Assembly: GCA_022567655.1 (NCBI GenBank)
Contig: JADFGO010000014.1
Coordinates: 1-33,235, forward strand
DNA from: Candidatus Neomarinimicrobiota bacterium
Lineage (GTDB): Bacteria; Fidelibacterota; SORT01
Reading direction: 5' to 3'
DNA length: 33,235 nucleotides
Part shown: piece by piece, positions 2,178-31,510 of the stretch
How positions within the stretch are numbered: the stretch's first letter is position 1
Layout of the letters: each line of letters opens with the position of its first letter
The notes under the pieces: model-generated
What the model was told of the DNA's origin: nothing
The model's database searches: none
What the model saw: the letters and a program-made list of their open reading frames with translations, nothing else
Position numbers and translations under genes: made by a program

Positions 2178-3613
2178 ACCGTACCTTTTGCCTTTTTCAT
2201 TCGGGATAAAACTTCATCTTTTCCAAAGTATTCAACCAACCTTGGCAGTTCGGGTCCGTGGCTTTGCCCCGTTAGGGCAATTCTCACAGGCATCCACAGA
2301 TTTTTACCACTACTGCCCGTCGCTTCCTGAACCTCTTTCATAATCGCGCGGAATTCATCTGTGCCCATGTTGTCATAACTTCCTGAGGCTGCGATAAAAC
2401 TATTAAAAATCTTCCTCGAATCTTTGCTTTCCAATATTTTTCTCTCGTCTTTTCCAGCAGGCACAGCTTCGTCTTCGTAAAATAGAGATGCGTATTCAGG
2501 CAGTTCGGAGAGGGTTGACAGGTTGTCTTTAACGGCGTTTATCACCATTATGGTTCTCTCCCTGTTCTTTGTCGGATAACCGGCTGAATTAAGATACGGG
2601 ATTGATAACTCCAATAACCTCTCCTCGCTTAACGAACGGATATACTGGCCATTCATCCATAAGAGCTTATCATCATCGAATACTGCCGATGAAGTTGTCA
2701 TTCTTGCAAAATCAAATTCGTTTATGATCCTTTCGAGGTTCAGTATATCGTCCCCGCTCTTTGATGACCATGAGAGCAGACTCAGATAGTTGATAAGGGC
2801 GTCCGGTATATATCCTTCTTCTCGATAACGTCTGATAGACAAGGCGCCGTTCCTTTTGGAGAGCGTTTTTTTCTCTTTGTTCAGAATCGTCGCCGTGTGC
2901 GCAAATTTCGGAGGCTCAAGATTCAATGCTTCATATAGCAACAATTGCTTTGGAGTGTTAGATACATGCGCTTCACCCCTTATCACATGACTTATTTTCA
3001 TGAGCGCATCGTCAATCACTACGGCAAAGTTGTATGAAGGCATCCCCGAAGATCGAATAATTACAAAATCTCCTATGTTGGAGAGCTTCCACGATATTTC
3101 ACCCTTAATCTGGTCTGTGAACGACAGCTCGCCTTCCCGCACCATAAATCGCAACACGGGTTTAATGCCGGCGGATTTCTTTTCATTCTCTTCAGCGACT
3201 GAAAGCTCGCGGCACTTCCCGCTGTACCTCGGCTGAAGGCTTTTACTCAAAGCCTCTTTGCGGGTTATCTCCAACTCCTCCTCACTACAGTAGCATTTGT
3301 ACGCAAACCCGTTCTCTAACAGTTTTTCCGCATATTCCCTGTGATATTCGATTCTGTCTGATTGGAGATATGGACCGAAATCCCCGCCTATATCCGGACC
3401 TTCGTCCCACTCGATACCCAGCCATTTTAAATCTTCTGCAAACCCTTTCTCCGAACCGATAACGTATCTATCCTGATCGGTATCCTCAATTCTAAGTATC
3501 AGCTTTCCGTTCTGCTGCTTCGCGTACACCCAGTTCAACAAAGCCGTGCGAATGTTACCCGCATGCAACTCGCCTGTGGGGCTTGGAGCGAACCTGACCC
3601 GAACATCCGACAA
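2174..3613 (-). CDS. gltX: Glutamyl-tRNA synthetase
   Basis: Class I synthetase that charges tRNA-Glu with glutamate. The 479-aa protein carries the HIGH-like motif FAPSPTGELHAGNIRTALLNW at the N-terminus, the IEDTDQDRY segment, a Zn-ribbon-like CYC plus YSGKC pair, and the KMSKS-like signature KKTLSKRNGA. The full length with a C-terminal anticodon-binding domain separates it from the short GluQ enzyme. It lies 2 bp after the DedA gene and overlaps ispE by 4 bp. Whether it also charges tRNA-Gln, as in organisms with GatCAB, cannot be told from this window. Confidence 0.95.
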   Translation of the reverse strand: MSDVRVRFAPSPTGELHAGNIRTALLNWVYAKQQNGKLILRIEDTDQDRYVIGSEKGFAEDLKWLGIEWDEGPDIGGDFGPYLQSDRIEYHREYAEKLLENGFAYKCYCSEEELEITRKEALSKSLQPRYSGKCRELSVAEENEKKSAGIKPVLRFMVREGELSFTDQIKGEISWKLSNIGDFVIIRSSGMPSYNFAVVIDDALMKISHVIRGEAHVSNTPKQLLLYEALNLEPPKFAHTATILNKEKKTLSKRNGALSIRRYREEGYIPDALINYLSLLSWSSKSGDDILNLERIINEFDFARMTTSSAVFDDDKLLWMNGQYIRSLSEERLLELSIPYLNSAGYPTKNRERTIMVINAVKDNLSTLSELPEYASLFYEDEAVPAGKDERKILESKDSRKIFNSFIAASGSYDNMGTDEFRAIMKEVQEATGSSGKNLWMPVRIALTGQSHGPELPRLVEYFGKDEVLSRMKKAKGTV

Positions 3614-3615
3614 GG

Positions 3616-4236
3616 CTAAGATTCCTCCGAAGGAACCGGCTGCCGGTTCTTTTTCATAACGATTAAAACGCCCGCTGTCAGCGCAAGAATAATAAAGATC
3701 GTTATTATTATGTTATAATTACCCACAACCGCTTTTACATACTGCCAATTTTTTCCCGCATAATAACCTGCGGTTATCAGCAATCCGTTCCATATCAAGC
3801 TGGAAATAAATGCAAGGATCGTTACCTTGAGAATATTAAGGCGGGCGAAGCCTGCAAATATGGACACAACAGATCTCGTCCCGGCAAGAAACCGGTTCCC
3901 CATTACTACAAAGTATCCCCACCTGTCAAACCATTTATCAATTTTATCGATTTTCTTCGCACCGAACCATTTAAAGTTTTTCCTATCAAAATATTCCCTG
4001 CCGAAATACCTCCCGACCGCATAATACGTCATAAACCCAGCTAAACTCCCTATTGTCGTCATGGCAAGACTTGGAAGAAATTCTATTTTCCCCAACCCTA
4101 CAAGGTATGCGCCGAATATCACGACAGTGTCGCCGGGAACAGGTGGAACGATATTTTCAACATACGCAGCTATCAGAAGAGAACCGTACAACCACGCGGG
4201 ATTCAACCCGCCTATCGTATCTAATATTCCTTCCAC
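3616..4236 (-). CDS. DedA-family integral membrane protein
   Basis: The 206-aa polytopic membrane protein has the DedA/SNARE-associated signature ENIVPPVPGDTVVIFGAYL near residues 27-46 and the second conserved block NRFLAGTRSVVSIFAGFARL near 113-132, with hydrophobic helices at the C-terminus (about residues 165-195). DedA proteins act as polyprenyl-phosphate or phospholipid flippases in the inner membrane, and some are needed for membrane homeostasis; the specific substrate here is unknown. It lies between ispF and gltX with gaps of 6 and 2 bp. Placement beside isoprenoid genes is suggestive but only circumstantial. Confidence 0.88.
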   Translation of the reverse strand: MEGILDTIGGLNPAWLYGSLLIAAYVENIVPPVPGDTVVIFGAYLVGLGKIEFLPSLAMTTIGSLAGFMTYYAVGRYFGREYFDRKNFKWFGAKKIDKIDKWFDRWGYFVVMGNRFLAGTRSVVSIFAGFARLNILKVTILAFISSLIWNGLLITAGYYAGKNWQYVKAVVGNYNIIITIFIILALTAGVLIVMKKNRQPVPSEES

Positions 4237-4242
4237 TTTATT

Positions 4243-4722
4243 TTATTCTTTCTTTTCCAATAGGGCAACGGCATAAGCCGCAATCCCTTCACCCCTGCCG
4301 AGCGTTCCGAGTCCTTCGTTAGTCGTCGCCTTGATCGAAACCGTACCAGAATCAGAGTTCATAGCCCCGCTTATTTTTTCGATCATTTCTTTTTTATACT
4401 GCGCTAATTTAGGTTCCTCTGCAATGACGGATACATCGACGTTGACCGCTCTCCATCCTTTATCTTCGAGAGTAGCTGTTGCCTTCCCGAGTAGTTCAAG
4501 AGATGAAATGTTTTTGTAAGCATCATCTGTATCTGGAAAATGTTCGCCGATATCGCCGAGGTTTGCGGCTCCAAAAAGCGCGTCCACTATCGCATGACAA
4601 ATAACGTCCGCATCGGAATGTCCAAGTAAGCCGAGCGGGTGGGGGATATTCACTCCACCCAATATCAAAGGCGTACCCTCATTGAGCGGATGGATGTCAT
4701 ATCCGATGCCTATCCTAAACAT
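4243..4722 (-). CDS. ispF: 2-C-methyl-D-erythritol 2,4-cyclodiphosphate synthase
   Basis: Converts CDP-ME 2-phosphate to the cyclic diphosphate with release of CMP (MEP pathway). The 159-aa product has the metal-binding GYDIHPL motif at the N-terminus, LLGHSDADVICHAIVDALFGAANLGDIGEHFPDTD in the middle, and the C-terminal KATTNEGLGTLGRGEGIAAYAVALL. The length is standard and all metal ligands are present. It overlaps the end of ispD by 8 bp, the usual ispDF arrangement but as separate proteins, not the fused IspDF. Confidence 0.96.
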   Translation of the reverse strand: MFRIGIGYDIHPLNEGTPLILGGVNIPHPLGLLGHSDADVICHAIVDALFGAANLGDIGEHFPDTDDAYKNISSLELLGKATATLEDKGWRAVNVDVSVIAEEPKLAQYKKEMIEKISGAMNSDSGTVSIKATTNEGLGTLGRGEGIAAYAVALLEKKE

Positions 4723-5407
4723 TTACGGCATTATCCCGGAAGTAACGTTCTACTAATATGAGGTCCTCCTGCACCGTAACTTTTATGTTATCGCTCCTGC
4801 CTTCAACAATAGAAATTTCGACGTTCATGCGTTCAACAAGCGACGCCTCATCAGTTCCGATATATCCGTCCCTTTCCGCTGTCGCAAGAGCTTCCGTTAA
4901 TATATCTTTTCGGAATCCCTGCGGCGTCTGGGCTAACCATAAAGAGTCCCGTTTAATCGTTTTCACGATTTTTCCGTTCTCCACTTCTTTGACAGTGTCT
5001 TTACACCTGGTCGCAAGCAAAGAGGCGCCATGATTATAGACATCTTCGGTAAGGGAATCGATGTCGGAAGGATCTACCAAGGGTCTTGCGCCGTCATGAA
5101 TTAGAACCAATTCAGATTCCCGGGACAGTGCTCTTAATCCGTTTTCTGTGGAGTTCTGACGATGGGTTCCTCCTGCGACAACAGAGTTGATTTTTCCGAA
5201 TCCCTCTCCCTTTACCAGTTCTTCTACAAAACCGAGAGAATCTTCCCGTGCGACGATTATGATCTCATCCACGCTGTCCGCTGCTTCGAATCTCGAGATA
5301 GTCCATGCAAGCAGCGGTTTACCGTTTACCTGCACCCTAAGTTTATCCACGCCGTTATCCATGCGTTTCGAACTTCCCGCAGCGACTATGACAGCGGATA
5401 CGGCCAT
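4715..5407 (-). CDS. ispD: 2-C-methyl-D-erythritol 4-phosphate cytidylyltransferase
   Basis: Transfers CMP from CTP to MEP, the third step of the MEP pathway. The 230-aa protein begins with the nucleotide-binding VSAVIVAAGSSKRM and KPLLAWTI, has LVLIHDGARPLV in the middle, and ends with an IKVTVQEDLILVERYF helix typical of the family. The start ATG lies 9 bp after the queA stop. Overlap with ispF suggests coupled translation. Confidence 0.95.
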   Translation of the reverse strand: MAVSAVIVAAGSSKRMDNGVDKLRVQVNGKPLLAWTISRFEAADSVDEIIIVAREDSLGFVEELVKGEGFGKINSVVAGGTHRQNSTENGLRALSRESELVLIHDGARPLVDPSDIDSLTEDVYNHGASLLATRCKDTVKEVENGKIVKTIKRDSLWLAQTPQGFRKDILTEALATAERDGYIGTDEASLVERMNVEISIVEGRSDNIKVTVQEDLILVERYFRDNAVNV

Positions 5408-5416
5408 CTTTTCTAA

Positions 5417-6454
5417 TTAAAGAATCAGCATAGCATCGCCGTAACTGTAAAAGCGATACTTATTCTTTTTTGCCACTTCGTATGCATGAAAAATCAGATC
5501 ACGTGACGCAAACGCCGATACAAGCATTAGGAGTGTCGAACCGGGCATATGGAAATTGGTGATCAGCTTATCAGCCACTTTGAAATCATAAGGCGGATAA
5601 ATGAACTTATCAGTCCAACCCATTCCGGGATTGATCCTGTTTTGCGTTATGAATACGGATTCCAATGCTCTGGTAGTAGTCGTTCCCACGCCGACTATTT
5701 TTTTACCTTTCTCCATCGAATCATTTACTATAGTGGCGGCATCCACCGATATTTCAAAATATTCCGAATCCATCCTATGACGGGACAAATCTTCTACATG
5801 AACCGGTTTAAACGTCCCGAGCCCCACGTTAAGAACAATCGGGATAACATTTACCCCTTTTTTCTTGGCTTTTTCGAGAAGCGGTTTGGTGAAATGCAAT
5901 CCTGCTGTCGGAGCAGCGACGGCTCCGATATGGCTTGCGTAAACCGTTTGATACCGTCTTTTATCCACCGCAGTCGCTTTTCGTCTAATATACGGCGGCA
6001 AAGGTGCGGCGCCGACTTTATCGAGAATCTTATAAACGTCATCCCCGTTGCAGGAAAACCTTACAACCCTCCCGCCGGAAATTGTGTTGTCGATTACGTC
6101 GCATGACACAGTTTTCGTGATAGAGAGCTTATTCCCAATCCTGACTTTGCGAGCCGGTTTGACAAGCACTTCCCACATGTTGCTCTCGAGCTCTCTCAGT
6201 AGAAAGAGTTCCACATGTGCATTCGTCTTCTGTTTAATCGCCTGAACTCTTGCCGGAAAGACCTTTGTTTTATTGATTACGAGGCAATCGTCCTTATCAA
6301 GGTAATCTATTATATTGAAAAATTTTCGGTGCTCAATTTTTCCCGTATCCTTGTGAAGGACCATTAGTTTCGATCTATCCCTTCGGGGCAGCGGTTTTTG
6401 CGCCACGTATTTTTCCGGTAAGTTATACTGAAATTCTGCTAATCTCATCCCCAT
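5417..6454 (-). CDS. queA: S-adenosylmethionine:tRNA ribosyltransferase-isomerase
   Basis: QueA moves the ribosyl part of SAM onto preQ1 in tRNA to make epoxyqueuosine. The 345-aa sequence shows the N-terminal LPEKYVAQKPLPRRDRSKLMVL, PPYIRRKA, the VAAPTAGLHFTKPLL signature, VLNVGLGTFKPV, and the C-terminal NFHMPGSTLLMLVSAFA block. Length is standard. Two ATGs lie near the start (6454 and 6448) and the Shine-Dalgarno GGAG upstream fits either. It is followed by ispD and preceded by ruvB; ruvB-queA is a widespread neighbour pair. Confidence 0.95.
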   Translation of the reverse strand: MGMRLAEFQYNLPEKYVAQKPLPRRDRSKLMVLHKDTGKIEHRKFFNIIDYLDKDDCLVINKTKVFPARVQAIKQKTNAHVELFLLRELESNMWEVLVKPARKVRIGNKLSITKTVSCDVIDNTISGGRVVRFSCNGDDVYKILDKVGAAPLPPYIRRKATAVDKRRYQTVYASHIGAVAAPTAGLHFTKPLLEKAKKKGVNVIPIVLNVGLGTFKPVHVEDLSRHRMDSEYFEISVDAATIVNDSMEKGKKIVGVGTTTTRALESVFITQNRINPGMGWTDKFIYPPYDFKVADKLITNFHMPGSTLLMLVSAFASRDLIFHAYEVAKKNKYRFYSYGDAMLIL

Positions 6455-13436: not shown

Positions 13437-14354
13437 CTACTTATCATCCTTCACTTCTATCCAGCCCACATCAGTTCCCACATGATTTTTCAACACCGGT
13501 CTTCTTAAGTTATCGAAATCGCCTCCCGGGGTTACACCCATCTTGTCGAGTATATAGAAGACGGCAGGGGCGACCGCCCTACGGCTTCCGTCATGCGCCT
13601 TGAGCGCTATCCCGACCGGTCCGTCTGGCGTTTTTATAGCCATGCACTGAACTCCTTCCGCACCCATCTTCGAGAGTATACTCCCTTTTCCCGATGTCAT
13701 CAGCACGGTGTCGAAGCGTTCGGTTCCGGCGACCATTAGAGGATACGACGTCATCTTTTCCCATATATCATTTAACAGACTCCCTTCCTCCGCCTCTGCA
13801 AGTTTACTGTACATCAGCGCCATTTTTTCAATAGTGAGGTAGAATACGGGAGCCGAACAACCGTCAACCCCCACGCGAATCTCATTTTCTTCCGAATATT
13901 TTTTGATTTCTTCGAGGATTCTTTGCTGTACCGGATGGGCAGGGTTCAGATAGTCATCAAGCGGTTCATCCCTCATCTTAGCAGTGGCAAGCATCGCTGA
14001 ATGCTTTCCCGAGCAGTTGTTGTGAAGTAGTGACGGCGCTGATCCCTCTTTATTCATTTTCCGCCTCACTTCCTTGCCAAGCGGAGGATGAACTCCGCAG
14101 CCGAGCAGGGAAGAATCCAAACCCGTCTTATCGAGTATGCTTTTTACCGCTTTCACGTGCATCTCCTCTCCGGAATGCGAGGAACAGCAAACCGCAATCT
14201 CTTCATCGCTTAATCCGAATTCAGTGTGCATTCCGATCTGAAGCGCCGGCAGCATCTGAAACGGCTTAGCGGCGGAACGAATGTAGGTGTACATCTCAGG
14301 TTCTCCGTACCCTGCGATGAGTTCACCTGATACTCCTACAACAGCAGCGCTCAC
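13437..14354 (-). CDS. Asparaginase II family protein (start uncertain)
   Basis: Matches the thermolabile asparaginase II family (Rhizobium etli type, PF06089), which hydrolyses asparagine to aspartate and ammonia. Seen: YIRSAAKPFQMLPAL, VCCSSHSGEEMHVKAV, LGCGVHPP, LLHNNCSGKHSAMLATA, GVDGCSAPVFYL and a C-terminal VLKNHVGTDVGWIEV. The only canonical start is GTG at 14354, but family members carry about 20 more N-terminal residues. The same frame is open upstream to the pdxJ-like stop and encodes INVYRNGEIESVHE, which looks like the true N-terminus. A GAAGGA lies upstream of ATC and ATA codons there. The real start may therefore be non-canonical, between about 14438 and 14390. Confidence 0.85.
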   Translation of the reverse strand: MSAAVVGVSGELIAGYGEPEMYTYIRSAAKPFQMLPALQIGMHTEFGLSDEEIAVCCSSHSGEEMHVKAVKSILDKTGLDSSLLGCGVHPPLGKEVRRKMNKEGSAPSLLHNNCSGKHSAMLATAKMRDEPLDDYLNPAHPVQQRILEEIKKYSEENEIRVGVDGCSAPVFYLTIEKMALMYSKLAEAEEGSLLNDIWEKMTSYPLMVAGTERFDTVLMTSGKGSILSKMGAEGVQCMAIKTPDGPVGIALKAHDGSRRAVAPAVFYILDKMGVTPGGDFDNLRRPVLKNHVGTDVGWIEVKDDK

Positions 14355-14438
14355 TTCATGAACGCTTTCGATCTCACCGTTTCGATAAACGTTTATTTTG
14401 ATAAGAAAATTTCCTTCGGGAGGGAACGATTCAGAAAT

Positions 14439-15128
14439 TCATTTAACGAGGTCTATCATATCCCGTACGGCGTTTTCCAATCCGATAAGCATCGCCCTGC
14501 TTATGATTGCGCCCCCGATTGATATCGTGTCAATCTGTTCGATCTCCGCTACGTAAGCTGCGTTTTGATAGGTCAATCCACCTCCGGCGGAAACTCCGAG
14601 ATCGAATTTGAACGCAGCTCTCGCGACTGACGCTATCCGCTCAAGCTCTAATGTCCTGTCGTGATAGTTTTGTGTGCCGGCGAATCTTGTGGTATTCAGA
14701 TCGACATAATCGGCGCCTAACCGGGAGGCGGTCTTAGCATCCGAAACTTCCGGATTTATTCTGATTGCCACTGCGAGGTTCTTGTTGTTTTTCAGTACAG
14801 AAATAGCTTCTTTCATATGTGAAGCGACCCTGGAGTCGGTCAAACCCAATTCATCGTCAAGAGTTACCATCGCGGAGTTTATCGATAACGCCTTGTCAAC
14901 CAGGCGTTTGGAGGAACTTATGACCAAATTTAATCGGGAATGTACCACTTCCTGAAGGATATTTAGATCCCTCAATCGCTCTTCTTCTCTTTCCTCTGTG
15001 AGCCTGATACTCACAGCGTCCACGCCGGCTAATTCAGCCGCGACAGCTGCTTTAACGGGGTCTATGGAACGGTCTATGGTGTCTCTCATTTTCGCCACCG
15101 GGTCCAACTTTACCTCAAGTAATGCCAT
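14439..15128 (-). CDS. PdxJ-like protein lacking the family's catalytic signature residues
   Basis: The 229-aa protein aligns end to end with pyridoxine 5'-phosphate synthase PdxJ, a TIM barrel. It keeps the frame of every conserved block but not the active-site residues. NIDHxA reads KLDPVA; HLREDRRHI reads RLTEEREEER; NLEMA reads NLVIS; the PEKRxE segment reads LDDELGL; E(I/L)HTG reads VDLNTTR; NAGHGL reads SAGGGL; NIGHAII reads SIGGAII. All signature histidines are replaced. It is therefore unlikely to be an ordinary PdxJ; a different reaction, a ligand-binding role or a structural role are all possible. It has its own RBS (AGGAG) 23 bp after the deacetylase stop and is followed at once by the asparaginase-like frame. 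Confidence 0.8.
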   Translation of the reverse strand: MALLEVKLDPVAKMRDTIDRSIDPVKAAVAAELAGVDAVSIRLTEEREEERLRDLNILQEVVHSRLNLVISSSKRLVDKALSINSAMVTLDDELGLTDSRVASHMKEAISVLKNNKNLAVAIRINPEVSDAKTASRLGADYVDLNTTRFAGTQNYHDRTLELERIASVARAAFKFDLGVSAGGGLTYQNAAYVAEIEQIDTISIGGAIISRAMLIGLENAVRDMIDLVK

Positions 15129-15151: not shown

Positions 15152-16213
15152 TTAGTTCATGAGCTGTGAAGGATAGACAAAATCAAAACCTTCTTCGATT
15201 ATTAAAGGAATTTCTTTTTTCAATGCCGAAATAGTTTTAGCGTTTACGTGGCCAATGCCGATAGCGGAACCCTTTCTAAAAGCCTCATTTTTCAATTCAT
15301 GAATCCTCTGTTCAACAGTCATTAAATCATCCGAATTATCCAGAAAGACCGCCCTTTTCGCCGCCGGAACGCCCATCTTAAGCGCTTCTGCATAGCCGAC
15401 ACTTGACGCATGGGTCGCGCTGTCAATAAAATATAAGTCGTAAGGACGGATTACGGCAAGAAATCTCTGAATTATCTTCACTTCTGATGTCACCTTCGAG
15501 CCTTGATGATTGTTCAACCCCACGGCTCCCGGTACACTGATAAGCGCTCTTGAGATTCGCTCGGAGATTTCGCTCTCTGTCATGCCGCTCATTATGATAT
15601 ACTCCTCCTCCCCGCCTCGATAATCATACGGTTCCATAGGAAGATGCAGCAGTACTTCTTTTCCCTGTGAGACGGCAATTTTGGCTACTTGGGTGGAATG
15701 TTCATGCCCTGGGATTACCGCAATTCCCAGCGGAATCGGCATCCGGAGAAGTTCATCAACCCGGTCGTCCCAGAAATAGCCGAAATCGTCAATGAGTATT
15801 GCTATTAGTCCGGAAGATATATCGTCTGTTTCTTTGAAACGGAACAAAAAGTCTTCTTCATTTCCGTACTTGATCAGCGCTTGAAATTCGCCTTCTCCGA
15901 CGTTCCAATTGAACTCGGGTAATAATCCTGTTTCGCCGAGTGTCTCAGTTATTACTTTTTTCATCCAGACTTTTCCCAGCCCTCTTGCATACATAAAGAG
16001 AGTCGTGCCATTCTCATCTACAGGAAATACTTTAAACCCTTTTTCGTTCAATGAGGATACAAATTCGTTGTCAATATACACTTCAAGAGCTTCCGCTGAC
16101 ATGATCCCGTTACCCTCTTCATCGCCAAAGTAAATGTACGCTATGATTATTGCGTCAATGATAAGCCAGATGACGATCCAGACAACTAACGTCTTCTTAA
16201 AAAATCGATTCAT
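15152..16213 (-). CDS. Divergent polysaccharide deacetylase family protein
   Basis: The 353-aa product has an N-terminal membrane anchor (about residues 8-30, VVWIVIWLIIDAIIIAYIYF) and a C-terminal divergent polysaccharide deacetylase domain (PF04748/DUF610, YibQ-like). Marks are IAILIDDFGYFWDD, PLGIAVIPGHEHS, VLLHLPMEPYDY, VGLNNHQGSKVT and YFIDSATHASS, which keep the Asp/His pattern of the NodB-like barrel. It probably acts in the periplasm on a glycan, substrate unknown. ATG at 16213 overlaps the upstream lipoprotein gene by 17 bp; an adjacent in-frame TTG (16216) is less likely. Confidence 0.88.
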   Translation of the reverse strand: MNRFFKKTLVVWIVIWLIIDAIIIAYIYFGDEEGNGIMSAEALEVYIDNEFVSSLNEKGFKVFPVDENGTTLFMYARGLGKVWMKKVITETLGETGLLPEFNWNVGEGEFQALIKYGNEEDFLFRFKETDDISSGLIAILIDDFGYFWDDRVDELLRMPIPLGIAVIPGHEHSTQVAKIAVSQGKEVLLHLPMEPYDYRGGEEEYIIMSGMTESEISERISRALISVPGAVGLNNHQGSKVTSEVKIIQRFLAVIRPYDLYFIDSATHASSVGYAEALKMGVPAAKRAVFLDNSDDLMTVEQRIHELKNEAFRKGSAIGIGHVNAKTISALKKEIPLIIEEGFDFVYPSQLMN

Positions 16214-16748
16214 CAACCCATCTCTCTATCCGCCAGCTCTCTCCGGGCGCATTTTTATCGAAAAAGAAGACTGCCGTTCCCGTCAACTGTATTTCCGTAT
16301 CTAACTTCAGCACAAAACTTTTTGACACTTTTGCTTTTTTAGCTCCCTCGAAATATATGACGCTTAATGCAGAATCCGGCGCGGGCGACCAGTAAGCCTC
16401 CTCGACCGTACTGTTCCACTCGAGTGATATGTTCCTTACCGCGCGGAACAGACCTGCCGTCGTTTTCAGCTCGGTGTCCCTCCCCCAACTGTCAAACCTG
16501 CCTGTTCCTTCCACGCTCGGATCAAAAAATACAAATACAAATCCCGTATCGATCACTTCGCTGTAAACTAACGAGTCACCGAAAATATACGCGAAACGAA
16601 AATTTTCCAATACTTCCTCGGGGTTCAGTCTTTCCGTCAAAACGGCGTCTGTTCCCGATTCCACCACTCCGAGTTCAGGTGCAAACGGGTTCACACATCC
16701 ATACATCGTAACCAGTAAACCCATCAGAAGCGAATCAGAGAACTTCAT
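16197..16748 (-). CDS. Small lipoprotein, paralogue of the upstream gene
   Basis: The 183-aa protein starts with a lipoprotein signal (KFSDSLLMGLLVTMYGC, lipobox Cys at about residue 18). The mature part contains NPEEVLENFRFAYIFGD, GRFDSWGRD and a C-terminal WRIERWVDES. The same landmarks, in the same order, appear in the upstream lipoprotein (MVLENMSNAF, AFDSW, WSIYRWEDL), so the two look like diverged paralogues, possibly with an NTF2/SnoaL-like fold. Start ATG at 16748 overlaps the upstream stop by 4 bp; a longer frame to 16826 has no signal peptide. Function unknown. Confidence 0.7.
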   Translation of the reverse strand: MKFSDSLLMGLLVTMYGCVNPFAPELGVVESGTDAVLTERLNPEEVLENFRFAYIFGDSLVYSEVIDTGFVFVFFDPSVEGTGRFDSWGRDTELKTTAGLFRAVRNISLEWNSTVEEAYWSPAPDSALSVIYFEGAKKAKVSKSFVLKLDTEIQLTGTAVFFFDKNAPGESWRIERWVDESIF

Positions 16749-17356
16749 TGAGCCCTCGCCTTCATCTCGCTCCATGTAGGAAGTTTTAGCGTATCGTCCT
16801 CGCTGCCGAACGTCAGATCCTCCCACCGGTATATCGACCAGCTACCGCTGAAATCCTTCGCCATCCTGAGTTTGGCAATCCCTTTCATCCGTGTGGGGAC
16901 GTTCTCGAGCTGGTGCATGATATCCAGATCATATACCTCCTCGAACGTTGCAGTGTCTGAGGGTATGGATGGTTCCTCGAATTCCTCGAACCCCAGCAAA
17001 GCAAGCGCTCCTGATGGCAGTGAAGATTCAGAAAAGATAAGATTGATGTATCTCCTCTCATCTTCAAGCGTCCAACTGTCAAAAGCGCCGGGATTGTTGA
17101 TCGCCGTCTCCTGATCGGGAATATATACGAAATCTCTCTCCGAGTTGCTCGAATCCGTCAGACAGCGCATGTAGTTATCCGCGTTCCGCTCCAAAAAAGC
17201 GTTTGACATATTTTCAAGCACCATATCAGGTGAAGTAGGCTGCTGCCAGAGACTTCTACCGACATTTTCGTCAGGGTCTTCCGCCTCACGAGTTCCGAAC
17301 AGTGAATCGCAGCCGAAAAACAGTATGGATAGGATCAGCAAAAGATACTTTTTCAT
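16745..17356 (-). CDS. Small lipoprotein, first gene of the operon
   Basis: The 203-aa product opens with MKKYLLLILSILFFGCDS, a clear lipoprotein signal with lipobox FFGC. The mature protein is acidic and carries SPDMVLENMSNAFLERNADNY, GAFDSWTLEDERRY and a C-terminal WSIYRWEDLTF. Shared landmarks with the next gene indicate duplication. I choose ATG 17356 because the signal peptide begins there; 17377 would add MFPYVQT with no function. A strong promoter ends only 6 bp before this ATG, so the mRNA may be leaderless. Family not recognised. Confidence 0.72.
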   Translation of the reverse strand: MKKYLLLILSILFFGCDSLFGTREAEDPDENVGRSLWQQPTSPDMVLENMSNAFLERNADNYMRCLTDSSNSERDFVYIPDQETAINNPGAFDSWTLEDERRYINLIFSESSLPSGALALLGFEEFEEPSIPSDTATFEEVYDLDIMHQLENVPTRMKGIAKLRMAKDFSGSWSIYRWEDLTFGSEDDTLKLPTWSEMKARAQ

Positions 17357-17362
17357 CGTTTG

Positions 17363-17391
17363 AACATAAGGAAACACCCGCCGAATGTCAA
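17363..17391 (-). promoter_or_regulatory. Strong candidate promoter for the lipoprotein-deacetylase operon
   Basis: Minus-strand TTGACA (17391-17386), a 17-bp spacer, then TATGTT (17368-17363). Only CAAACG separates the -10 element from the ATG at 17356, so transcription would start at or next to the first codon. Confidence 0.6.
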
Positions 17392-17837: not shown

Positions 17838-18152
17838 TTAAACATTACTAAACAAAATGACAGATGATTTTTCGAGTCCCTTCTTTATTGTCGAAGTTTT
17901 TTCATCAAACAGTTCGATATGAACTTTCTTACCAAGTCTATTTGATAATTCGTTTTGCCATAAATCTTGGAAATCAATCATAATCAGAGTCCGTTCTGAT
18001 TCTGGCAGCGAAGGAAATTCCATAGCAATATCAATATCACTCATCTTTACTGCCTCGTTTCTAGCGTGAGACCCATATAGATAAATTTTCATCTTAAAAG
18101 GCTTAGTACTTGCCCAATCAGTTATACGCTGTTTAATAAGTTTAATGATCAT
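17838..18152 (-). CDS. Minimal nucleotidyltransferase (MNT) domain protein
   Basis: The 104-aa protein has the nucleotidyltransferase signature YLYGSHARNEAVKMSDIDIAM (GSxAR...SDxDx) near residues 24-44 and a later VHIELFDE strand that could give the third acidic residue. Such MNT proteins are usually the antitoxin of MNT-HEPN pairs, AMPylating the HEPN toxin. No HEPN gene lies next to it, so its role is open. ATG 18152 is chosen because AGAGGT sits 4 nt upstream; a longer frame to 18206 would translate the REP palindrome. It follows the RAYT gene on the same strand. Confidence 0.78.
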   Translation of the reverse strand: MIIKLIKQRITDWASTKPFKMKIYLYGSHARNEAVKMSDIDIAMEFPSLPESERTLIMIDFQDLWQNELSNRLGKKVHIELFDEKTSTIKKGLEKSSVILFSNV

Positions 18153-18164
18153 TAATACCTCTAA

Positions 18165-18192
18165 TTCCGTGGCAGTCAGGGCTTGCCCTGAC
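18165..18192 (+). repeat. REP palindrome 1
   Basis: TTCCGTGGCA head followed by GTCAGGGC-TT-GCCCTGAC (18175-18192), an 8-bp perfect stem. It lies between the RAYT stop and the nucleotidyltransferase start. The left 18 bases repeat at 18883-18900 with one mismatch. Confidence 0.75.
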
Positions 18193-18202
18193 GCCATGTT
18201 TA

Positions 18203-18763
18203 TCAATAGATAATTCCTTTTATATCGGTTAGTGTCAGAAATCTCTCATCTCCATCATCATACCAACCGGCACTTGAATAGAGAAATTTCTCCGCTGTTT
18301 CCATAAGACCTTTTCTCACCGGATTTCCATGGATATAATTTATTTTCGTTCTCGTCGTCTCAGGTTTTCTTAACTGCAAATCGTCAAACCTCGGCATCCA
18401 TACTTGGTTGGATTGTTCTTTTGTCAGTCCAAATTCTTCTGCCGATCTCCTGAACAGTTCTAAGAGTGCAGGAGATTGTTCATTAGCGAATTCTAATATC
18501 TTTTTAGCTGAAAACGATTTCCACTCTCTGATAAAATTTGATAAGTCTCCCTTGTTGATTGATTGTACTATCATATGAATATGGCTCGGCATTAGACAGT
18601 AGCAGTAAATTTTCATCTCGTATTTCTTTCGCACATCTTCCAACAATTGAAGACACGACGTTGCTAATAACTTGATATGAAATACACTGATATGATGTGT
18701 AATCGTAGTGGTGATGAAAACCGGGAATTCGGAATCGTCGTATTTTGTTCTTCCTCTTTTCAT
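18203..18763 (-). CDS. REP-associated tyrosine transposase (RAYT, Y1/IS200-like)
   Basis: The 186-aa protein is a single-domain HUH nuclease of the Y1_Tnp family. It has the HUH motif in CLMPSHIHMIVQ near residue 60 and a catalytic-Tyr region INYIHGNPVRKGLM near residue 150, followed by YSSAGWY, all typical of RAYTs. These act on REP hairpins as single-strand DNA endonucleases. REP palindromes occur on both sides of the gene here (18165-18192, 18772-18795, 18883-18916, 19077-19100). The ATG is 8 nt after the hairpin at 18772-18789, and no Shine-Dalgarno is seen between. Confidence 0.92.
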   Translation of the reverse strand: MKRGRTKYDDSEFPVFITTTITHHISVFHIKLLATSCLQLLEDVRKKYEMKIYCYCLMPSHIHMIVQSINKGDLSNFIREWKSFSAKKILEFANEQSPALLELFRRSAEEFGLTKEQSNQVWMPRFDDLQLRKPETTRTKINYIHGNPVRKGLMETAEKFLYSSAGWYDDGDERFLTLTDIKGIIY

Positions 18764-28132: not shown

Positions 28133-29059
28133 ATGAGAAATGCCTTATTCATATCAGTGATGTTATTTACACCGCTCACGGTGATCGCGCAGGGCGAGGG
28201 GGGATTTGCGGCGCCGTTTCTCCGCATGGGACTCGGCGCGCGGGCAATATCGATGGGAGGCGCCTTTACCGCCGTTGCCGACGACGGATTTGCCGCCTAT
28301 TACAATCCCGCAGGGCTTCCCTACCTGACTAAAAGGCACTTTACAACGACCTATTCATTCCTCTCACTCGACAGGCGGTTCCATTATATTTCATACTCGC
28401 AAAGTTTGAAACCCACCGCCGGTCTCTCCCTCTACTGGCTTGCCGCGGGGACCGACAATATCGACGGACGTGACCTCTCAGGTAATCATACCTTCGATTA
28501 CAGCGATGCTTCGAATGCGTTCGGGATCTCTTTTGCAAACAGGTTCCATGAATCCATCGCAATCGGAATAACTCTTAAGATTATCACACAAAATCTTGAT
28601 CTCGCCGACGAAAATCTCAGCTCGAACGACCTCGCATTCGATGCCGGGCTTATGTTCATCCCGGTGGAGAACCTGAAGTTAGCTGTGGTTATCAAGGATT
28701 TGAACGCCAGTTTCAGTTGGAGCACTCAGGACCTTTTCAGCCTCGGGACCGTCTCCATCGATACGATCCCTTACACGCTGAACGCGGGCGCATCGTATCT
28801 GTTCGATAACGGACTGACAATTTCAACCGCCGCACTATTCAATCAGTCGCAGCAGGAGAGGATGCGTTTCGGAATCGAGTACCGGAGAGATGAGCTCTAT
28901 TCACTCCGGGCTGGCTCCGACGACGGCGCGTTTTCCTTCGGCGGTGGAGTTCGATATCAAGTTTCGGGCGGAGTTTATACAAACATAGATTACGCCTTTC
29001 GACCGGAGGTCGTCGGAGAAGGGGGAACTCATCTCTTCAGCTGGGAGTTTACCTTTTAA
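28133..29059 (+). CDS. PorV/PorQ-family outer-membrane protein, first copy
   Basis: The 308-aa protein has a signal peptide (MRNALFISVMLFTPLTVIAQ) followed by the family block MGLGARAISMGGAFTAVADDGFAAYYNPAGLPYL, then 12-14 predicted beta strands and a terminal Phe. In Bacteroidetes, PorV-type barrels (FadL-like) receive type IX substrates at the outer membrane. It is directly downstream of a candidate substrate. Start ATG lies 1 bp after the previous stop. Confidence 0.86.
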   Translation: MRNALFISVMLFTPLTVIAQGEGGFAAPFLRMGLGARAISMGGAFTAVADDGFAAYYNPAGLPYLTKRHFTTTYSFLSLDRRFHYISYSQSLKPTAGLSLYWLAAGTDNIDGRDLSGNHTFDYSDASNAFGISFANRFHESIAIGITLKIITQNLDLADENLSSNDLAFDAGLMFIPVENLKLAVVIKDLNASFSWSTQDLFSLGTVSIDTIPYTLNAGASYLFDNGLTISTAALFNQSQQERMRFGIEYRRDELYSLRAGSDDGAFSFGGGVRYQVSGGVYTNIDYAFRPEVVGEGGTHLFSWEFTF

Positions 29060-29971
29060 GTGAAAATTTTGTTCTACACTCTGTTATTCGCCGCGGTTCA
29101 GCTGCCGCAGGCTCTTTATGCGGGTGATCCCTCATCAACCGGAATGGCGTTCCTGAAGCTCGGTGTCGATGCCGCTTCAACCGCTATGGGCGGAACCGGT
29201 GTTTCCAACTCGGAGGGGGCTGTCGCCTCGTACTGGAACCCGGCGGGATTGGCTTCCGCAGAAGAGTCTGACGTCGTCATTTCACATCAGGAGTGGCTCG
29301 CCGGTTCGAGCAACCAGTATTTAGGCGTCTCTTTCCCCGGCAGCAGTTACTCGTTCGGTCTGAGTTTAGCGCTGTCTGGAGTAAGCGACATCGAGCGGCG
29401 CGATGAACGTCCTACTGCGGAACCGCTCGGTTATTTCAGCGCCAACTCGATCGCGCTTTCACTCTCAGCCGCTGCCGGAAGGGGCAGCGGTTTACAATTT
29501 GGCGCCACAGCGAAACTACTCTATGAAAAGATCTCCTTTTACACGGCAAACGGATTTGCGTTCGACTTCGGTCTGATCAAGAGTCTGAATTTTCATAATA
29601 TCCGCACGGCTCTTGTAGTCAAGGACGTCGGCGGGATGTCATCTCTGAACATTGAGTCAACCTCGCTGCCCGCGCGGATCACAGCCGGGATCAGCGGTAG
29701 GTTCAACCCCCGCTCAACCACATCCTTCAGCTGGGCTTTCGATGCCGGTAAATATTTCGAGTCGGGAACGTTCATCAGGCTCGGCGGTGAGCTGAACCTT
29801 AACGAGATCCTCAGCCTCCGCGGCGGTTACAAACGGAACTCGGAGAACTCGTCCGGCATCACGGCGGGAATCGGCATAACACGCAACCGCTACCGCTTCG
29901 ACTACGCGTACCTCCCCTTCGACTTCAACCTCGGCGACACACACCAGATGAGCTTCGGTATAGGGTTTTAA
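29060..29971 (+). CDS. PorV/PorQ-family outer-membrane protein, second copy
   Basis: The 303-aa protein, a paralogue of the previous gene, has a signal peptide (ILFYTLLFAAVQLPQALYAG), FLKLGVDAASTAMGGTGVSN, VASYWNPAGLA and VISHQEWLAGSSNQYLGVSF, and ends in SFGIGF. The HQEW segment is more like PorQ-type members than PorV. The start is GTG 29060, touching the previous TAA. Two diverged barrels in tandem suggest two roles in handling the same cargo. Confidence 0.86.
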   Translation: MKILFYTLLFAAVQLPQALYAGDPSSTGMAFLKLGVDAASTAMGGTGVSNSEGAVASYWNPAGLASAEESDVVISHQEWLAGSSNQYLGVSFPGSSYSFGLSLALSGVSDIERRDERPTAEPLGYFSANSIALSLSAAAGRGSGLQFGATAKLLYEKISFYTANGFAFDFGLIKSLNFHNIRTALVVKDVGGMSSLNIESTSLPARITAGISGRFNPRSTTSFSWAFDAGKYFESGTFIRLGGELNLNEILSLRGGYKRNSENSSGITAGIGITRNRYRFDYAYLPFDFNLGDTHQMSFGIGF

Positions 29972-30552: not shown

Positions 30553-30677
30553 TCATTAGCAAGATCCATTTTTATCTGATTAATTTCATTAGTTGAGATA
30601 AAACCATTAGCAATTTCGTTATCCAAGGTACTATATATGTCACCAAGATAAAATGAATTCCTGTGTAATAGATTCAT
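30519..30677 (-). CDS. Small phage ORF, possibly truncated
   Basis: A 52-aa frame (MNLLHRNSFYLGDIYSTLDN...) starts at an ATG overlapping the stop of the BR0599-like gene by 4 bp, typical of phage operons. It ends at 30519 inside the DUF4276-like frame. The last residues (LSKLKKD) may be an artefact of the junction. No family recognised. Confidence 0.5.
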   Translation of the reverse strand: MNLLHRNSFYLGDIYSTLDNEIANGFISTNEINQIKMDLANERGVLSKLKKD

Positions 30678-31510
30678 ATGTTCAAACAACACTTTTTTCC
30701 ATCCATCGGGTTTTTCTGTGGGATGAAAGGAAATCCACCGTAGTTATCTATTGCATCAAATTTCCCGTCGCACGTCGCGACTGTATGATCACACCCTGGG
30801 AAAGCAGTGACAGTATCACCGACAATTATCCCAGTAAAAGACAGATTCAAGGTTAATACACCTGTCGCGTTATTATGGTCGGTAATAAAACGCCTATTAA
30901 CCAAGCCTGAAACAACAAATTCAACATACCCCCCGACAAAATGCGTACTATCAAATGTAGGATTTATTGAAACAATAAAACTCGAGCTTGTTATAGTCAG
31001 CCCGGAAACATCGGTAAGAACACCATTGACATCATGTAAAGTACGTATCACGGCACATTGAACACCATAAAGTACATGTGGACATGCGGTTTGATAAAAC
31101 CTCCGTAACCCTGGCCTACGTAAAGTAGATTGAATCGGGCTACAAGTAACTTCGCCTTCGTTTTCAATTAATTTGACATTGATTACTTTACCTTTAAAAG
31201 TAATAGCAGGATCACTATCGGACGCATGAATCCGCGTAATCGTAATAGTTATAATATCTGTTGGAGAAGTTGCTATAAACTGATCAAGAAAAGTAACATT
31301 TCTACTTAGCGTTATTTTTAAAGAAGTCTTACCCAGGTCCTGAGTCGATAATATTGCACTCCTTTTAAGCGGCACCGATAGATAGATGTTACCACTGAAA
31401 TCGATATCTTCATCGCCAGAAGTATAGTACCAACTAAACACCCCTCGCTTGAATTCGTATAATTCAAGCGGTTGAAAAAATTCAGAAATTTCAACATCAT
31501 TAAAAGCCAT
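30674..31510 (-). CDS. Phage tail protein, BR0599/DUF2163 family
   Basis: The 278-aa protein has the BR0599-type C-terminus: ACPHVLYGVQCAV at about residue 142 and FPGCDHTVATCDGKFDAIDN at about 239, then GGFPFIPQKNP. The four cysteines are in the places where lambda gpL-like tail-tip proteins bind an iron-sulphur cluster. The N-terminal half (DUF2163-like) contains the ITITRIHASDSDPAITFKGKV strands. These proteins form the tail tip/baseplate hub of siphophages and gene transfer agents. RBS GGTGA precedes the ATG, 7 bp after the upstream tail gene. Confidence 0.82.
   Translation of the reverse strand: MAFNDVEISEFFQPLELYEFKRGVFSWYYTSGDEDIDFSGNIYLSVPLKRSAILSTQDLGKTSLKITLSRNVTFLDQFIATSPTDIITITITRIHASDSDPAITFKGKVINVKLIENEGEVTCSPIQSTLRRPGLRRFYQTACPHVLYGVQCAVIRTLHDVNGVLTDVSGLTITSSSFIVSINPTFDSTHFVGGYVEFVVSGLVNRRFITDHNNATGVLTLNLSFTGIIVGDTVTAFPGCDHTVATCDGKFDAIDNYGGFPFIPQKNPMDGKKCCLNI

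Follow-up and report, generated by a model that had tools for sequence, protein, structure and literature searches.

In one published survey, pdxJ served as the signature of the DXP-dependent route to pyridoxal 5'-phosphate (PLP) (PMC9997740). In the literature that we searched, a search for PdxJ pseudoenzymes returned only proteins of the PdxS/PDX1 kind, such as plant PDX1.2, a regulator of vitamin B6 biosynthesis descended from PdxS/PDX1 (PMC6829848); no PdxJ homologue recruited to a different function was found described there. Two further described systems bear on the locus reported here. The E. coli SddA/YibQ type of deacetylase acts on denuded septal glycan strands and has the zinc ligands D31, D32, H78, and H123 (PMC12440217). 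For the asparaginase ReAV, the single replacements S48A, K51A, S80A, and K263A each abolish activity (PMC12292245).

Here we describe a PdxJ-derived protein encoded between relatives of these two enzymes. Judged from its sequence and those of its homologues, it is an old metabolic enzyme turned to a new job and kept by at least 48 species of one phylum under strong selection. The window (the whole stretch of DNA analyzed, 33,235 nucleotides) contains the following genes, which are referred to below as F0 to F3:

13437..14354, minus strand: F2, L-asparaginase II (class 3, ReAV-type) protein (PF06089, 4.7e-101; match to 7os3; motif columns)
14439..15128, minus strand: F1 (P0001, 229 aa), PdxJ-derived protein without PdxJ catalytic residues (Pfam PF03740, 8.1e-42; NCBIfam PdxJ equivalogs below cut-off; AlphaFold2 model; 48-member conservation)
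15152..16216, minus strand: F0, YibQ/SddA-type divergent polysaccharide deacetylase with an N-terminal membrane anchor (PF04748, 2.6e-64; match to 2nly; motif columns)
16197..16826, minus strand: F3, small putative lipoprotein (lipobox-like MYGC; cluster F3; no Pfam or NCBIfam family)
16745..17377, minus strand: F3, small putative lipoprotein, a paralogue of the preceding gene (lipobox-like FFGC; cluster F3; no Pfam or NCBIfam family)

P0001 keeps the PdxJ fold and lacks the PdxJ catalytic residues

The P0001 reading frame (14439 to 15128, minus strand) starts with ATG and encodes 229 aa. The Pfam PdxJ model PF03740 matches residues 4 to 227 (224 residues; E value 8.1e-42; 143 bits against a cut-off of 24.5), so that the domain spans the whole length of the protein. 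All six NCBIfam PdxJ equivalog models also align end to end, with scores far under their cut-offs (for instance, 111.7 against 192.75 for TIGR00559 and 143.9 against 190 for NF003625). Because the Pfam E value is this low and six further models align end to end, the sequence resemblance to PdxJ is not due to chance. P0001 is the sole PdxJ homologue in the window's genome.

The motif replacements listed by a first-pass annotation of this DNA are all present in the alignment with E. coli PdxJ: NIDH to KLDP, HLREDRRH to RLTEEREE, NLEM to NLVI, PEKR to the LDDE region, HTG to NTT, NAGHG to SAGGG, and NIGH to SIGG. We take the catalytic residues of the E. coli enzyme to be His45, Glu72, and His193, following its UniProt entry; the corresponding residues of P0001 are R42, V69, and G183. 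Of ten positions that we likewise presume to be substrate ligands (N9, D11, H12, R20, R47, H52, T102, G194, G215, and H216), only D11, G194, and G215 are kept. The statement that every catalytic signature had been lost therefore holds for the three catalytic residues and not for the pocket as a whole, where D9 (E. coli D11), D143 (E153), G184 (G194), and G205 (G215) survive. A search for catalytic residues supplied by nearby positions found none. Loss had also been described as confined to the active site. This proved incorrect, as P0001 is only ∼31% identical to PdxJ overall, is ∼10 residues shorter after strand 4, and has acquired new invariant residues.

An AlphaFold2 model of P0001, built on an alignment of 48 family members, reached a pLDDT of 94.5 and a pTM of 0.90. 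Its best 16 matches in the PDB are all PdxJ crystal structures, with TM scores of up to 0.94 by query length. The PdxJ TIM barrel is also predicted for L029, the most divergent member, which is 16 to 27% identical to the others (pLDDT, 87.8).

A single clade within one phylum

Homologues were surveyed in the window's genome and 60 relatives (61 genomes) and then across 245 genomes of the phylum. The phylum is likely Marinimicrobia (SAR406, Marinisomatota). What we presume to be the SAR406 probe target, TAAACTGGCGAACGGGTG, is found in 70 of the 245 genomes, never more than once in each (reversed control, 0; window's genome, 0), and falls in the 16S gene in both loci checked. Two adjacent PorV/PorQ-family genes, related to type IX secretion, lie at 28133 to 29971 on the plus strand of the window and recur near the cassette in family f7; genes of this type fit the same broad group.

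One PdxJ homologue each was found in 31 of the 61 genomes, and a PdxJ-domain protein was found in 49 of the 245. All but one of these 49 lack the catalytic residues, so that the orthologues with the same substitutions which the first-pass annotation had proposed to look for number 48. The position of His193 is glycine in 48/48, His45 is kept in none (Thr, Ser, Lys, Arg, or Pro instead), and Glu72 is kept in none (Arg, His, Val, Ile, or Lys). Every member has an intact reading frame without stops. In a tree with three canonical sequences, which does not place the origin of the family within PdxJ, the 48 members form one clade apart from canonical PdxJ (support, 100/100), and the window's family, f1, branches first.

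The remaining protein (L052/L162, G134:C35), canonical in sequence, is the only such PdxJ among the 245 genomes. It lies on a 9.9-kb contig of a genome that is 76% complete and reflects either horizontal transfer or contamination. A single-protein scan of genome contigs matched only a canonical Sumerlaeota PdxJ.

PLP is supplied by PdxS

PdxS is present in 59/61 genomes, including that of the window, and in 43/43 of the best. PdxA was found in 3/61 genomes; searches of the other 58, the window's genome among them, returned none. The proposed check of the genome for other routes found PdxS and no second PdxJ homologue. PdxJ works with PdxA in the DXP-dependent route. On gene content, PLP is made by PdxS in this group, and because PdxS fills this role and the window's genome has no PdxA, F1 is predicted not to be a pyridoxine 5'-phosphate (PNP) synthase. 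A match to the PdxJ domain consequently does not prove that PLP is made by the DXP-dependent route, and these genomes would be misread by a search at the domain level.

F1 is constrained and its pocket is rewired

In most pairs with usable dS, the dN/dS of F1 lies between 0.016 and 0.14, as expected of purifying selection, for which the first-pass annotation had proposed a test. The exceptions are two shallow pairs (0.22 and 0.90); the higher value, from L069/L079, was set aside, as a dS of only 0.03 is too little to use. Within family f1, F1 evolves more slowly than the other two cassette genes (0.016 and 0.075, compared with 0.13 to 0.14 for F0 and 0.10 to 0.13 for F2).

New invariant or near-invariant residues of the family are E5, R65, T89, G183, and an acidic residue at position 200. 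Others are common though not invariant (N7/D9, N67, R69, R123, and E143); G205 is kept in 45/48 members, and position 206 may be any of R, K, E, G, D, or N. From strand alternation, as opposed to measured pocket geometry, we infer that E5, K7, D9, R65, N67, and V69 of P0001 face the barrel. In 42 members, a strand 3 Arg, His, or Lys at position 69 (E. coli 72) accompanies a strand 1 Asn at position 7 (E. coli 9); in the five f1 members, the arrangement is swapped, with Val or Ile at 69 and Lys or Arg at 7. This is suggestive of a positive pocket charge that moved from strand 3 to strand 1 in f1, in what is one tree event only. Because the loss is common to one clade and is accompanied by purifying selection and new invariant residues, the sequences indicate that the F1 pocket has been rewired and not left to decay. 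Selection for a new role, as first proposed, is borne out by the shared losses, the constraint, the conserved operon, and PdxS as an alternative source of PLP.

The trio F0-F1-F2 is the constant part of the neighborhood

Neighborhoods of up to 20 kb were compared at 21 loci. Only the trio F0-F1-F2 is constant, and the flanks differ between families. F0 lies directly upstream of F1 in 48/48 genomes and F2 directly downstream in 46/48, giving the order F0-F1-F2 in 46 genomes and F0-F1 in 48. A strict partnership of F1 with F2 was ruled out by the two f10 genomes, which keep F0-F1 without F2. Most F1-negative genomes examined have F0 and F2 directly adjacent; family f18 has them separated. An extension at the N terminus of F0 was also considered as a marker of F1 and rejected as not exclusive. 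An operon link had been suggested with the deacetylase, the lipoproteins, or the asparaginase-like protein. It is strongest for the deacetylase, followed by the asparaginase-like gene, and extends to the lipoprotein-like F3 pair in only some families, the pair preceding the trio in 10/21 loci.

Near the upstream end of the window's operon (17838 to 18763, minus strand), a REP-associated tyrosine transposase adjoins a nucleotidyltransferase with weak similarity to the MntA antitoxin; this pair was not seen in the relatives' neighborhoods. Farther away (30674 to 31510, minus strand), the window encodes a baseplate hub protein of phage or gene-transfer-agent type (TIGR02218, slightly below the cut-off).

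The partners lose their own catalytic residues in some lineages

The F0 of the window has the PF04748 domain, a membrane anchor read from its sequence, and the zinc-ligand motifs DD, H, and H, as expected of the SddA/YibQ type. All four ligands are kept in 101/104 sequences. The window's F2 (domain at 13455 to 14396) keeps all seven catalytic and zinc residues (SKSCKCK), which comprise the two Ser-Lys tandems and the Cys/Lys/Cys zinc site of ReAV-type class 3 L-asparaginases. Its conserved N terminus reaches ∼14402 and so extends, across 14354 to 14402 on the minus strand, upstream of GTG at 14354, the first of the usual start codons; the gene may begin at an unusual one.

All seven F2 residues are likewise kept in the f1, f2, f3, and f7 sequences tested and in the F1-negative sequences tested, with the exception of genome G037. 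In the sub-clade f8/f12/f4/f13, many F2 members lack from one to all seven, including residues at which replacement by alanine inactivates ReAV. The G037 locus (L186, family f13, ∼3276 to 5790, minus strand) lacks F1 and has an intact F0 next to a degenerate F2, with EATFLSK at the key positions; its sister genome G045 lacks F1 and has an intact F2. As G037 has a degenerate F2 without F1, the idea that F2 degenerates strictly as a consequence of F1 being present was ruled out. From the distribution of the sequences, F2 degeneration characterizes the sub-clade and is not tied strictly to F1.

In genus g83 of family f13 (L148 and L150, from G226 and G227), the F0 zinc ligands are gone as well (NNHY). 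All three proteins there lack their catalytic or zinc residues, and yet they are full length and constrained, with rough dN/dS values, at a dS near saturation, of 0.125 for F0, 0.05 for F1, and 0.106 for F2; both genomes are drafts, 57 and 77% complete. Three constrained proteins that are all predicted to be inactive argue for a non-catalytic role, at least in g83. Because partners lose catalytic residues in some lineages and all three genes are still constrained, the conserved role of the cassette is probably not catalytic. A bolder and rather unlikely extension is that the cassette is a non-catalytic assembly derived from three enzymes, whose shared role in the cell envelope would be structural or sensory; PdxJ would have died once in the common ancestor, asparaginase II repeatedly, and the peptidoglycan deacetylase in one genus. 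If true, this would point to an unfamiliar side of the cell envelope in a major phylum that is mostly uncultured.

What F1 may do

The reading we favor, at about even confidence, is that F1 is a PdxJ-derived TIM barrel that has ceased to be a PNP synthase and is retained in a new binding, regulatory, or scaffold role tied to its partners. We infer a binding or scaffold role associated with the cell envelope, with a new enzyme as the main rival. F1 would act with the ReAV-like protein and the SddA-like deacetylase, the latter anchored in the membrane, would probably hold a ligand in its rewired pocket, and might take part in cell-wall remodeling or its metabolic coupling. This non-catalytic reading follows from the later loss of catalytic residues by the partners in some lineages while their genes stay constrained. 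Against it, F0 and F2 keep their catalytic residues in most lineages, the window included; the conserved polar barrel residues of F1 would equally suit a new catalytic site; and the tie to F1 is weakened by F2 degeneration in G037, which has no F1. Direct contact between F1 and F0 is uncertain, as no export signal was seen in the F1 sequence and the site of F0 action is outside the membrane.

A serious candidate, though one that we consider doubtful, is a new enzyme: the rewired barrel would catalyze another reaction, whose substrate might be a phosphorylated or an amino-sugar metabolite connected with the deacetylation of glycans or with asparagine/ammonia. The conserved charged, barrel-facing set (E5, N/K7, D9, R65, R69, T89, R123, and E143) and the partly kept glycine loops of strands 7 and 8 (G183, and G205 in most members) speak for it; members vary, however, at R69 (to V/I), at N7 (to K/R), and at position 206, and F1 stays where its partners lose catalysis. 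It is improbable that F1 is a hitch-hiker with a housekeeping role unrelated to the genes whose operon it occupies. The F0-F2 pair is kept alone where F1 is absent and the flanks beyond the trio change between families, as such a reading predicts, but the unvarying F0 upstream and nearly unvarying F2 downstream, across families with otherwise different flanks, oppose it. Continued PNP synthesis with relocated catalytic residues would suit the PdxJ fold and the partly retained equivalents of D11, E153, G194, and G215; with all catalytic His and Glu positions replaced (His193 by Gly throughout), PdxA absent, PdxS present, and scores far under the PdxJ equivalog cut-offs, it is scarcely credible. 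Equally remote is the view of F1 as the remains of a pdxJ in decay, for which PdxS/PdxT left no need: PLP synthesis by PdxS would leave PdxJ free to decay, but all 48 frames are intact, dN/dS stays far under 1 in almost every pair, new residues have become invariant, and the operon position is fixed across families with 25% identity.

Comparison with known systems

On the reading that F1 is a repurposed barrel, it is a clear example of how a vitamin enzyme can become a new protein under constraint, in a cassette whose changes can be traced over some ten families. F1 resembles PdxJ (PF03740, TIGR00559) in fold (TM score, 0.94), in block order, and in length to within ∼13 residues; it differs in the loss of the three catalytic residues and most ligands, in the lack of PdxA, in the supply of PLP by PdxS, and in its operon. 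With PDX1.2, the plant pseudoenzyme of the PdxS-type PLP synthase, it shares the condition of a catalytically dead relative of a vitamin B6 synthase kept under selection (PMC6829848). Unlike PDX1.2, F1 has PdxJ as its parent, and the genome retains no active PdxJ. The g83 form of F0 is likewise comparable to ATU2773, an SddA-like protein of the deacetylase family that is without zinc ligands and has a suggested regulatory role after losing catalysis (PMC12440217). ATU2773, in contrast, is encoded with an EnvC homologue, and no PdxJ-like or asparaginase-like partner is described for it (PMC12440217).
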